Positions 1,779 through 27,773 of a stretch of DNA of 37,792 bases are shown piece after piece. The notes under the pieces were generated by a model. The model was not told the DNA's origin. It did not search any database and worked only from the letters and a program-made list of their open reading frames with translations. Both the position numbers and the translations under genes were made by a program. The stretch comes from Magnetococcales bacterium (GTDB lineage: Bacteria > Pseudomonadota > Magnetococcia > Magnetococcales > JADFYX01), in the NCBI GenBank assembly GCA_015232405.1, contig JADFZS010000049.1:1-37792 (forward strand). The letters are read 5' to 3'. Every line of letters begins with the position of its first letter. The first letter of the stretch is position 1.

Positions 1779-2078
1779 ATGGAGATATCAAATAATACAA
1801 ATGATGGTGGAACATTTCAGAGACTATTCGAAAAATTTGGGCCATCAATGGGTTATGTAGATATTAAAGGATATTTTGAATACCCAGGTCTTGATCAAAG
1901 CTTTGTAAATTTAGTAAATAGAAGCAAAGAACCTTTTTTTAAAAGTCTAAGACAAGCAAGATTTAAATTTGGAAAACGTGTTAGGTTCAAAACAGAGGCT
2001 ATAGCACAGATTATTGACGGGATAGGGAATCCAGCCTCTGGACAAGATCAGCAGTCCTTAGATGGGTGTAACGTTTGA
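1779..2078 (+). CDS. Excisionase/AlpA-like small DNA-binding protein
   Basis: Ninety-nine residues, starting 2 bp after the Rep-like stop and therefore probably translationally coupled to it. The segment KEPFFKSLRQARFKFGKRV followed by RFKTEAIAQIIDG (about 50-82) resembles the second helix, wing and terminal helix of MerR/AlpA-type excisionases, whose signature is a basic GxRVRF turn followed by an acidic helix. Its last 68 bp overlap the end of the convergent integrase gene. The small size, the motif and the integrase next to it together suggest a recombination directionality factor or an element transcription regulator. The N-terminus (1-45) is unrelated to anything I recognise. Confidence 0.45.
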   Translation: MEISNNTNDGGTFQRLFEKFGPSMGYVDIKGYFEYPGLDQSFVNLVNRSKEPFFKSLRQARFKFGKRVRFKTEAIAQIIDGIGNPASGQDQQSLDGCNV

Positions 2079-3051
2079 GCATCTGCATAGATTTGTGGCC
2101 TGTTATAGCTGATACTTCTTGGTCAGATAAACCAAGTTCAACAAGTCGTGATGTTGCTTCGTGTCTAAGGTCATGGAAAGTTAAACCTTCAATTCCTGCC
2201 CTTTTAAGGGCTTGCATCCATATCTTATTAATGGTGTATGGTCTTCTTACACCATCCCGGCCTGGCTCACCAAAGAATACTAAATTAGTATCTTTGGGTC
2301 TTTCTTCACAATTCAAAGCCAGGTGTAAAACCCTTTCAGCTTCTTGGCTCATGGGTATAGTTCTGGTTTCGCCGTTCTTAGTATCAATTAACAAGATAGT
2401 TCGTTTTGAAATATTGATGTCTTGTTTTTTAAGAGAAACTATCTCGCTCTTACGCATGGCTGTTTCCAAAGCTAAGCGAACAATCCATCCAAGCATTGGG
2501 TTTGGGTGCAGATCCACAGCATCAAGTAGACGTGGCTCTTCATCTTTGTAAAGCCTCCTTTCTCGACCTTTTCCGGTTGGTGGCTTCCTGATACCTGCAA
2601 CAGGGTTGAAAGTTAGACCTATATGCCACTCCTGTATAGCAATAGTGTATATGTGTGAAAGTAGAGCAAGTTCAAGCCTAACAGTGTTTGGTTTTACTAC
2701 TTCTAACCGCATGTCACGGAAATTTGATATAATGTCTGGTGTAAGTGCAGCAAGAGAGAAATTGCCAAGGTGTTTAATTAGCTGTTTTGCTCTGAAATTT
2801 TCGGTTCTTATTGTTTCTTTTGCTTTTGTGGTAGTTACTTCCTTGAGGTATCTTTGAACTGCTTCTTTAAGAGTGGAGCGTTCAGCTTTAGATCTATCAA
2901 CAAAAATTCCACGTTCCATTTCATCTTCAGTTCTTCTGGCCCATGCTTCAGCATCACGTTTAAGGCGGAAATTTTTTGATACGGTGGGCCATCCATTCCT
3001 TCTTATTAAGGCTCTATAACTGCCGGATGGTGTTTTGGAAAATGTAGCCAT
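2011..3051 (-). CDS. Tyrosine recombinase / phage-type integrase
   Basis: A 346-residue site-specific recombinase that would insert and excise the element. Seen: an N-terminal arm-binding domain (ATFSKTPSGSYRALIRRNGWP), a SAM-like core-binding domain (about 58-155) and a C-terminal catalytic domain with all expected residues: Arg200 (ETAMRKSEI), H293-x-x-R296 (FHDLRHEAT), His319 (ITGHKS) and the nucleophile Tyr328 (LKRYTH). Length and motifs are complete, so it should be active. The gene reads away from the tRNA-Asn gene, as is usual for an integrase at an attachment site. Its 3' end overlaps the convergent excisionase-like gene by 68 bp, so transcription of one strand could interfere with the other. 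Confidence 0.93.
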   Translation of the reverse strand: MATFSKTPSGSYRALIRRNGWPTVSKNFRLKRDAEAWARRTEDEMERGIFVDRSKAERSTLKEAVQRYLKEVTTTKAKETIRTENFRAKQLIKHLGNFSLAALTPDIISNFRDMRLEVVKPNTVRLELALLSHIYTIAIQEWHIGLTFNPVAGIRKPPTGKGRERRLYKDEEPRLLDAVDLHPNPMLGWIVRLALETAMRKSEIVSLKKQDINISKRTILLIDTKNGETRTIPMSQEAERVLHLALNCEERPKDTNLVFFGEPGRDGVRRPYTINKIWMQALKRAGIEGLTFHDLRHEATSRLVELGLSDQEVSAITGHKSMQMLKRYTHLRTADLVQRLDSLSRQ

Positions 3052-3153: not shown

Positions 3154-3229
3154 TGGCTCCCCGACTCGGACTCGAACCAAGGACAAGGTGATTAACAGTC
3201 ACCTGCTCTACCAACTGAGCTATCGGGGA
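3154..3229 (-). tRNA. tRNA-Asn (anticodon GUU)
   Basis: The minus strand gives a 76-nt cloverleaf starting TCCCCGATAGCTCAGTTGG. The acceptor stem TCCCCGA pairs with TCGGGGA, the anticodon stem is GGTGA/TCACC around loop CTGTTAA (anticodon GTT), the T arm contains GGTTCGAGTCC, and the gene ends in an encoded GCCA. It is a stand-alone tRNA with its own promoter and terminator. Its 3' end borders the integrated element and is the likely attachment site; the gene is intact. Confidence 0.96.
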
Positions 3230-4664: not shown

Positions 4665-4842
4665 GGTTAAACCTAGAAACGGCGGTTGGCGGTGCGTACA
4701 TGGCGTAACATATTGGTTTAGCTGGTGTAACAGAGCAAATCGAAGTCACCTCATTGGTGATGAGACTTTGATCTGTTATGCCAGATGAATCAATAGGTTG
4801 CGTCAGGTGCGTGCTGACAACTGCTGTTTCTAGGTTTAACCA
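4665..4842 (+). repeat. Palindromic MITE-like element, copy A
   Basis: The outermost 16 bp are perfect inverted repeats: GGTTAAACCTAGAAAC at 4665-4680 and GTTTCTAGGTTTAACC at 4827-4842. The 165-bp core (4671-4835) is itself a long imperfect palindrome, centred on a hairpin at 4728-4778. The same 165 bp occurs in reverse orientation at 15166-15330 with three differences. No coding potential is credible. It looks like a non-autonomous mobile element or a structured intergenic repeat; no transposase with matching ends is in the window and no target-site duplication is obvious. Confidence 0.85.
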
Positions 4843-15165: not shown

Positions 15166-15330
15166 ACCTAGAAACAGCAGTTGTCAGCACGCACCTGACG
15201 TAACCTATTGATTCATCTGGCATAACAGATCAAAGTCTCATCACCAATAAGGTGACTTCGATTTGTTCTGTTACACCAGCTAAACCAATATGTTACGCCA
15301 TGTACGCACCGCCAACCGCCGTTTCTAGGT
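15166..15330 (-). repeat. Palindromic MITE-like element, copy B
   Basis: The 165-bp core, read on the minus strand, matches copy A (4671-4835) at all but three positions, without gaps. The terminal ACCTAGAAAC/GTTTCTAGGT inverted repeats are intact, whereas the outer 6 bp of copy A's terminal repeats are not conserved here, which argues that the mobile unit is the 165-bp core. The central hairpin is at 15223-15273. Confidence 0.87.
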
Positions 15331-15401
15331 AAAAACAATACCAACATAAATGGTTGATATTTTTGTTTTCTAGATTTGATATATCTATTATTATCCTTGA
15401 T

Positions 15402-15500
15402 TCGGCAGTTGGGCGTATGTGAATGACGCAACATACTTAGCTGCCGTAATAGAAAAAATCGAAGTCACCCAATGGGTGATGAGACTTTTTTCTATTTTGC
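15402..15500 (+). repeat. Diverged third copy of the palindromic element
   Basis: In the same orientation as copy A, it begins GGCAGTTGGGCGT, keeps ACGCAACATAC and TTAGCTG..GTAA in order, and retains the centre TCGAAGTCACC...GGTGATGAGACTT. The terminal repeats are lost. Bases flanking the centre have changed on both arms so that pairing is kept (copy A CAG/CTG becomes TAG/CTA), giving a hairpin at 15447-15495. It sits 61 bp after the stop of rny. Confidence 0.65.
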
Positions 15501-15560
15501 TTTAGACTGTATATATTTGATTAGAAATCACAATAACTACCATCAGTTCACAATGGTAAG

Positions 15561-17120
15561 TTAATTAGCTATCTCCTGGGCGCGCATCTCTCTGATTACC
15601 GTTACCTTTATCTGTCCAGGATAGGTCATCTCGTTTTCTATGCGGTCGGCAACCTCACGGGCGATCATCATTGCCCCTTCATCGTTTACCCGGTCATAGG
15701 ATACAATCACCCGCACTTCCCGACCTGCCTGTATGGCAAAAGCTTTGTCTACACCTTTAAAATCGGTTGCAATACCTTCTAACTGTTCTAAACGTTTAAC
15801 ATAGGTCTCAACGTTCTCCCTTCGGGCACCCGGACGGGCTGCTGAAAGCGCATCTGATGCGTTGGTTAGGGGTCCATAAACAGAAGTTGGCTCTATATCA
15901 AAATGGTGGGACCAGATGGCGTTCACCACTTGGGGATGTTCACGATATTTTTTTGCCAACTCACCGCCAATTACTGCATGAGAACCCTGTATTTCATGGT
16001 CAACCGCTTTACCGATATCATGAAGAAGTCCACAACGGCGGGCAATATTGCCATCCAAACCCAACTCTTCTGCCATTATGCCAGCAAAATATGCCACTTC
16101 AACGGAGTGGGAAAGTACATTTTGCGTGTATGAAGTACGAAACTGCAATGTACCCAACAGTTTAATAATCTCAGGATGGACGTCGCTCAAGCCTACCTCA
16201 AAAACAGCTTGCTCGCCCTTTTCGCGGATCTCATTATCTATGGTTTTGGTCGCTTTTTTAACTACCGATTCAATACGGGCCGGGTGGATTCTGCCATCGG
16301 TAATCAACTCCTCCAAAGAGCGTTTTGCAACCTGTCGGCGGACAGGGTTGAAGCAAGAGATAACCACCGCCTCTGGAGTGTCATCGATAATCAGATCACA
16401 GCCTGTTGCGGTTTCTATGGCTCTTATGTTGCGCCCTTCCCTACCAATAATCCGCCCTTTCATCTCTTCTGAGGGAAGAGCCACAACGGACACTGTTCGC
16501 TCTGCGACAAACTCCCCTGCTAAACGTTGTACAGCTGTCGCTATGGTATCTCTGGCCTTCTGCTCTGCACCCTCAAGGGCCTCTGTCTCCAGCTGCTTGA
16601 AAAGGCTTGCAGACTCTCTGCGGGCTTTATCTTCCAAGGAGGACATTATCAACTCTTTTGCCCGCTCACTTGACATCCCTGCTATCTCTTCCAGCCGTTG
16701 TTGAGCTTGGGTTAATAGAGTTTTATATTTCTCCTTTTGTTCATCTAATATGGATCTGTCTTTTTCCAGGCTGGTACGGCGTTTATCAAGCTCACGCTCA
16801 CGAACATCTATTTGATCAAATTTTCTATCAAGCTGTTCTTCCCGTTTATCAAAACGAGCCTTGAGCTGGTCTAACTCTGCACCTTTTTTCTCAAATTTTT
16901 TCTGCAACTCCTCCTCAACACGCAGTTGATGCGCCTTTGAGCTGATCTCCATCTCCCGTTTCATGGCTGTTGATTTCTGCTCAACTGCCTCAATTTTTTG
17001 TTGCAATCTCTCTTCTTGAACAGCCAAATCCTGTTTCTGGCGGTCACGTTGCAAAAAGAAATATGCGAGGGAGATGGCTATTCCAAGAATTGCACCAATA
17101 AGGATAGTAACAATATCCAT
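15561..17120 (-). CDS. rny: Ribonuclease Y
   Basis: A membrane-anchored endoribonuclease that starts mRNA decay by cutting 5'-monophosphate RNAs. I choose the third of three close ATGs (17129, 17126, 17120) because AGGAG lies 10 bp before it; this gives 519 residues, the family's usual length. Seen: an N-terminal membrane helix ([21 protein letters not shown]), a long charged coiled coil (about 25-180), a KH domain with [13 protein letters not shown], and an HD domain with [12 protein letters not shown] and later SHHFDIEP. Downstream there is only repeat DNA; upstream, at 90 bp or more, is fthC in the same direction. The enzyme is found in Gram-positives and in some deep proteobacterial lineages, which helps place the host. 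Confidence 0.97.
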
Positions 17121-17219
17121 GGCCATCATTCTCCTACTCTAATAAACAGCCTATAATACTGATTAATAGAGAAATATCGGTTAATACAAGATGCTCAAAG
17201 ATGCTAAAATAGAGATGAA

Positions 17220-17792: not shown

Positions 17793-17841
17793 TACAAAAA
17801 CACAACTAAAAGCTGGTTGCTTAATCTATTCTATAAAAAAA

Positions 17842-18020
17842 TCCCCCACCTGTACCGTGGGTGTGCTTTCTCTGAACCCTTCGTTAAAGGCGGACTCCCG
17901 AGATAATCGCTTCTGCGGATCTCCCATAAAGAGAGCATGCACTCCACGATCAGAGCAGGTTTCCTAGGTTCATGAGTATCGGCTCAGGAGAATGCCACTC
18001 CTCACGAGCACCGCAGGGGA
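17842..18020 (-). ncRNA. ssrS: 6S RNA
   Basis: The minus strand between zapA and fthC carries CCTGAGCCGATACTCATG, nearly identical to the 5' conserved block of enterobacterial 6S RNA, then GTGGAGTGCATGCTC and GAAGGGTTCA on the 3' side. The ends pair (CCCCTG with CAGGTGGGG) to close the long rod around the central bubble. 6S RNA mimics an open promoter and binds sigma70 RNA polymerase, chiefly in stationary phase. The 3' end is followed by a hairpin and seven T residues (17841-17835). A GATAAT box just after the zapA stop (18027-18022) could be a proximal -10 element. Ends are approximate. Confidence 0.9.
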
Positions 18021-18027
18021 AATTATC

Positions 18028-27556: not shown

Positions 27557-27773
27557 AACTCACCTCAAAAAAAATATCACTGTTTCTCAACAACCGTTTT
27601 ACCAAAAATGGCAGCTTGAAATGCAAACATGACGTAAAATATTGATTTTTCTAAAGTATCTAAAAAAAACCCAACCACCATATTGGTGTTAGGACTATCC
27701 CATGATATGCCAGTTAAACAATAACTTGTGCCAGCTATTATCAATTAACTGCTAAATTAGGGTTTAATGTAAA

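Follow-up and report, generated by a model that had tools for sequence, protein, structure and literature searches.

Enterobacteria carry ERIC (IRU or RU-1), a 127-bp palindromic miniature transposon (MITE) (PMC2229807, PMC10969869), Yersinia carries YPAL (RU-2), a palindromic element of ~168 bp with an open frame of 56 codons (PMC2759123), and the hairpin of the Neisseria MITE Correia (NEMIS) is transcribed and processed by RNase III (PMC2229807, PMC10969869). The repeat described here, copies of which lie in a 37,792-nucleotide stretch of a Magnetococcales genome (the window), is a non-autonomous miniature transposon of 162–163 bp, carrying the tested features of a MITE and a hairpin of the kind seen in ERIC, Correia, and YPAL. 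With ERIC it shares an imperfect palindrome, intergenic dispersal, a long hairpin, target duplication, and a high copy number, however the sequences differ and the target of ERIC is TA. YPAL is of similar size and likewise palindromic with an open frame, and its kinship to the repeat, prompted by the length of 168 bp, was rejected because its printed sequence shows no evident likeness by eye and its strands fold differently (-68 and -59, with 4 G·U pairs each).

Within the window, copy A (4672..4834, plus strand, plus being the best-folding strand as in alignment A1, described below) is a complete 163-bp element with ends CCTAGAAACGG..TGTTTCTAGG and flanking 5-mers TTAAA and TTTAA, its core at 4705–4801 scoring 103.7 bits with a covariance model. 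Copy B (15167..15329, minus strand; core at 15200–15296, minus strand, 105.9 bits) is also a complete 163-bp element, inverted with respect to copy A, of which it is the reverse complement with 98% identity over 169 nt. Copy C (15395..15501, plus strand), a truncated element matched by nhmmer over model positions 1–111, comprises the initial ~107 nt of the element, with the left end (recognisable as ATTAT|CCTTGATTCGGCAGTTG at 15390–15411) and the core kept, and the right ~52 nt lost. The core of copy C (15445–15499, plus strand) scores 45.9 bits (E = 7e-9) with a covariance model built without it, a match to the family far above chance. Copy D (27607..27753, plus strand) is a very decayed, nearly full-length relic (nhmmer E = 8.7e-14; covariance model 24.3 bits, E = 0.0014).

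The original prediction treated copy C as a third, diverged copy in which paired changes keep a central hairpin. The letters it quoted are all present, with copy A reading ..CAG AGCAAA TCG AAGTCACC TCATT GGT GATGA GACTTTGAT CTG.. and copy C reading ..TAG AAAAAA TCG AAGTCACC CAAT GGGT GATGA GACTTTTTT CTA.., such that CAG/CTG becomes TAG/CTA and CAAA/TTTG becomes AAAA/TTTT. Copy C is indeed a real copy of the repeat, but it is not a decayed A or B; its nearest relatives belong to the subfamily of G003, another species of the genus (score of 111, compared with 81 for copy B), and A/B and C thus represent two subfamilies. The hairpin of copy C would have been kept because its ancestral, different subfamily already had the paired differences.

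Copies B and C are located just downstream of the RNase Y gene (15561–17129), with copy C 60 bp from its stop codon and the structured strand of copy C antisense to that gene. Elsewhere in the window, a tRNA gene (3157–3229) adjoins a phage-type integrase gene (2011–3051), both on the minus strand, and these, together with an uncharacterised 423-aa ORF (505–1776) beyond the integrase gene, look like an integrated element. A 6S RNA gene is found at 17839–18022 on the minus strand (90.9 bits).

The full repeat unit of 163 bp is near-palindromic and occurs in dozens of copies per genome in several Magnetococcales. Blast recovers ~40 copies in the window's own genome, mostly 94–99% identical, and a covariance model of the 97-nt core recovers at least 67, along with at least 74, 27, 19, and 83 copies in four other species of the genus, and at least 41 and at least 44 in further genomes of the order; the copies analysed below are a sample by best match, and several of the assemblies are incomplete metagenome bins. 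Core-model matches occur in 9 of 48 genomes of the order Magnetococcales, with no match in the remaining genomes of the 48, and a 399-genome sample of the phylum yielded 17 more genomes with matches, all from one other (second) family. This second family appears to include Mariprofundus, judging from one contig of the same content (G140:C372, L155). The copies form a large family of short mobile DNA repeats, hosted by Magnetococcales and iron-oxidising relatives. Carriage by a phage, virus, or plasmid was rejected, as the plasmids, viral contigs, and phages searched contain no match to the repeat. No description of the repeat was found in the literature searched, an absence which is not proof of novelty.

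Several individual loci deserve mention. A Magnetococcales-type copy lies on the Nitrospinota-binned contig JADGAW010000244.1 (L151, positions 77–239), reflecting either misbinning or transfer, and at L043 (positions 567–806) fragments of both element ends directly precede a complete copy, as if part of the element had been duplicated or a second one inserted in tandem. G003 also carries hairpins of 44–48 bp with element-like ends (CCTGGAACCGGCAGTTG and its complement) at G003:C87:50540-50583 and G003:C7:106102-106149, which could be mini-derivatives or terminators.

Copies of the repeat start with CCTAGA and finish with TCTAGG, or close variants of these, and are flanked by 5-bp target duplications which are perfect in 66 of 95 copies and agree at 4 of 5 bp in 15 more, the duplicated targets being AT-rich and mostly TTNAA or ATNAT. 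The length is exactly 163 in 82 of these 95 copies, and 162 in most copies of the second family. The elements are thus shorter than 500 bp, with terminal inverted repeats complementary over ~17 bp and no transposase gene, and they are dispersed and mostly intergenic, crude gene calls placing no ORF across 85 of the 103 sites. It is the terminal repeats, combined with the 5-bp target duplications, that identify the element as a MITE.

ISEcp1, which we take to be a member of the IS1380 family, and its relatives share with the repeat ends of the type CCTAGATTC-, 5-bp duplications, and matching ends within the same genome; in contrast, the repeat lacks a transposase and its interior is unrelated to that of the IS. 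The left repeat of ISEcp1 is CCTAGATTCTACGT (PMC7864471). IS1380-family transposases are present in both the Magnetococcales and the second-family groups, with the second-family genome G161 containing about 18 full-length matches to the transposase model above the cut-off (the best at 313.6 bits). An intact, multi-copy IS1380 element of 1670 bp in G161, whose transposase scores 312.6 bits against a cut-off of 180, has the ends CCTAAATCCTGCAAGTG and, in its clearest copy, the duplication TAATA. The MITEs of G161 end in CCTAGATCCTGCAAGTG, with 16/17 identity to the IS1380 end, and this genome consequently holds an autonomous element that matches its MITEs both at the ends and in the length of the duplication. 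The IS and the MITE are alike at the terminal 17 bp only, with no likeness between their interiors, and this comparison of sequences shows that the internal body of the MITE does not descend from the IS that accompanies it. For a second type of MITE end, CCCAAGATCCGACATTG, similar ends are seen on an IS1380 element in the relative G140. In the Magnetococcales assemblies, none of the IS1380 elements recovered carries the exact end CCTAGATTCGGCAGTTG of the Magnetococcales MITEs; they end in CCTGAATCGGTGA, CCCGGATATTTCATGAA, and others. The matching ends and the 5-bp duplications, present on both the MITEs and the IS1380 elements, suggest that the MITE is moved by IS1380 transposases, an interpretation which is well supported in one genome.

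One strand of the element folds into a hairpin of ~75 bp with the conserved core AAAYC-GNN-GUYACC-UUAUU-GGURAU-RA-GRCUUU. In a gap-free alignment of 61 copies (A1), the cells of which count copies rather than independent events, kinship being ignored, 90% of cells are paired in this hairpin, compared with no more than 42% in slid control structures. Both sides are changed in some copies at 41 of the 76 pairs, giving 395 both-side-changed cells against 132 ± 10 in shuffles, and RNAalifold on its own gives essentially the same hairpin. Pairing is thus conserved beyond chance, in strong support of the prediction that the structure is kept by compensatory change. The second family has largely different arms but retains the hairpin, core, and strand preference.

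The unpaired segments proposed at the centre of the hairpin fared less well. The bases TC of TCG, thought to be unpaired, pair with GA and change to CC/GG elsewhere (45 copies with TC/GA compared with 8 with CC/GG), although an internal loop does exist, formed by G-N-N opposite R-A, along with one bulged C. In copy C, as aligned to A1, the 5′ side of the loop is GAA (15461..15463, plus strand), of which the G is nearly invariant and the other two bases vary, and the 3′ side is GA (15481..15482, plus strand), of which the first base co-varies with its partner (A·G or C·A) and the second base, A, is nearly invariant. The bulged C (15485..15485, plus strand), which corresponds to column 95 and is C in 52 of 61 copies, is common in Magnetococcales and absent from the 162-nt copies of the second family. 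Across A1, G71·A92 hardly ever varies, column 73 is variable, and columns 72 and 91 switch in concert between A·G (31 copies) and C·A (26). The loop alternates and G71·A92 stays, and so the bulges, which had been presumed fixed, are conserved in kind rather than in their letters. The suggested kink-turn was rejected, as the stem side lacks the required 3-nt bulge and the second pair is A·G or C·A in place of tandem sheared G·A pairs.

Residual mismatches in the Magnetococcales copies fall at A1 columns 18, 29, 39–41, 50–52, and 62–64, with a best period of 10.75 bp (p = 0.002 by permutation, all periods considered), as though confined to a single helical face. This periodicity is not replicated in the second family (p = 0.23) and was therefore set aside. 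Comparison with Rfam, proposed as a check on the hairpin, returned tRNA and 6S alone at the gathering threshold for the window, with only microRNA-precursor and snoRNA models appearing below threshold; the alignment and model describe a family without an Rfam match.

The pairing is specific to one strand. Non-Watson-Crick cells on the structured strand of A1 comprise 735 G·U, 60 A·C, and 406 others (with kinship again ignored), and where a pair column includes G-C as well as A-U forms, G·U occupies 408 cells in total compared with 24 for A·C. G·U is the commonest state in 12 pair columns, A·C in none, and G·U makes up about 18% of standard pairs, a proportion regarded as typical of RNA. In 95 of 95 copies it is the same strand that gives the more stable fold, with genome means of -76 to -104 kcal/mol compared with -46 to -68 kcal/mol for the other strand, and this holds for 21 of 21 tested copies of the second family, where the ratio of G·U to A·C is 125 : 17. 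This bias is much stronger than that in the printed ERIC, YPAL, and RU-3 elements, which are single published sequences rather than families; the strands of the published ERIC sequence differ mildly, folding at -45 and -62 with 2 and 4 G·U pairs respectively, compared with 13 and 0 in copies from the window's genome. Of the two modes of action first envisaged for the hairpin, as RNA or as a protein-bound DNA cruciform, a double-stranded cruciform is not supported because both strands would count equally and no strand preference would be expected, whereas the tolerance of G·U but not A·C, always on the same strand, favours selection of the hairpin as RNA rather than DNA.

Strand preference is also compatible with selection of the hairpin as single-stranded DNA, one of the two strands being favoured, as might happen in replication or transposition. 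The palindrome, the fixed length, and the random orientation relative to genes (25 : 25 for tandem gene pairs in crude gene calls) fit such a role, and with DNA parameters the same strand remains the more stable one in 93 of 95 copies. We nevertheless consider this unlikely, as G·U pairs at such a frequency are RNA-like, and the IS1380-like ends and target duplications suggest transposition as double-stranded DNA.

Another possibility is that the repeat is an ordinary MITE whose hairpin is functionless, the likeness of its arms being due to strand-biased mutation or to quasipalindrome correction. In a palindromic element one arm can serve as the template for correcting its partner, and C-to-T change on a transcribed strand would also leave G·T on one strand only. 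Correction, however, would remove the internal loop and the G·U pairs, both of which persist across two families, and wobble pairs interchange with G-C as well as with A-U. Correction would also act without strand preference, in contrast to the predominance of G·U over A·C among the pair columns, making this explanation distinctly improbable.

We give very little credence to a regulatory hairpin maintained by the host in 3′ untranslated regions. Convergent gene pairs are favoured over divergent pairs by 27 : 8 (crude gene calls), as this would predict, however avoidance of divergent promoters is expected of any insertion, and tandem pairs show no preference in orientation, with the result that read-through from host genes does not explain the strand-specific selection. 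A peptide encoded in the manner of the Rickettsia palindromic elements (RPE), also palindromic repeats of ~150 bp with an open frame, is scarcely credible and protein coding was rejected: in 59 of 82 copies frame 2 of the opposite strand has no stop over the full 163 bp, 163 + 5 = 168 bp would preserve a reading frame, and long ORFs run in frame through a few copies (L031, L072), but the repeat shows no sign of coding selection (observed/expected synonymous fraction of 1.00, with first and third codon positions varying alike), whole subfamilies carry fixed stops, and most copies are not spanned by an ORF.

We therefore regard as probable a MITE moved in trans by IS1380 transposases, one strand of which is kept as a long RNA hairpin. 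The transposases would recognise the terminal ~17 bp and duplicate a 5-bp AT-rich target (TTNAA, ATNAT, and the like), and within this long-lived element one strand would be maintained as a ~75-bp hairpin with a conserved core. Because G·U, and seldom A·C, is the intermediate when pairs change, pairing would be selected in a transcript of the structured strand, and our best guess is that the hairpin RNA may serve the element itself, in its mobility or control, rather than neighbouring host genes. More tentatively, the repeat may be both a DNA transposon and an RNA gene: a long-lived selfish element whose hairpin RNA has survived as a lineage in two distant bacterial families by acquiring, time and again, the terminal repeats that belong to different IS1380 transposases, the RNA contributing to its own mobility or control.

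A MITE is commonly interpreted as what remains of a decayed insertion sequence. The interior here, however, is not derived from the accompanying IS, and the two distant families share conserved pairing on one strand although their ends follow different IS1380 elements. An interior not derived from that IS, one-strand pairing, and changing ends together make this family a good case in which to ask if a mobile repeat can bring along a structured RNA of its own and rely on it.
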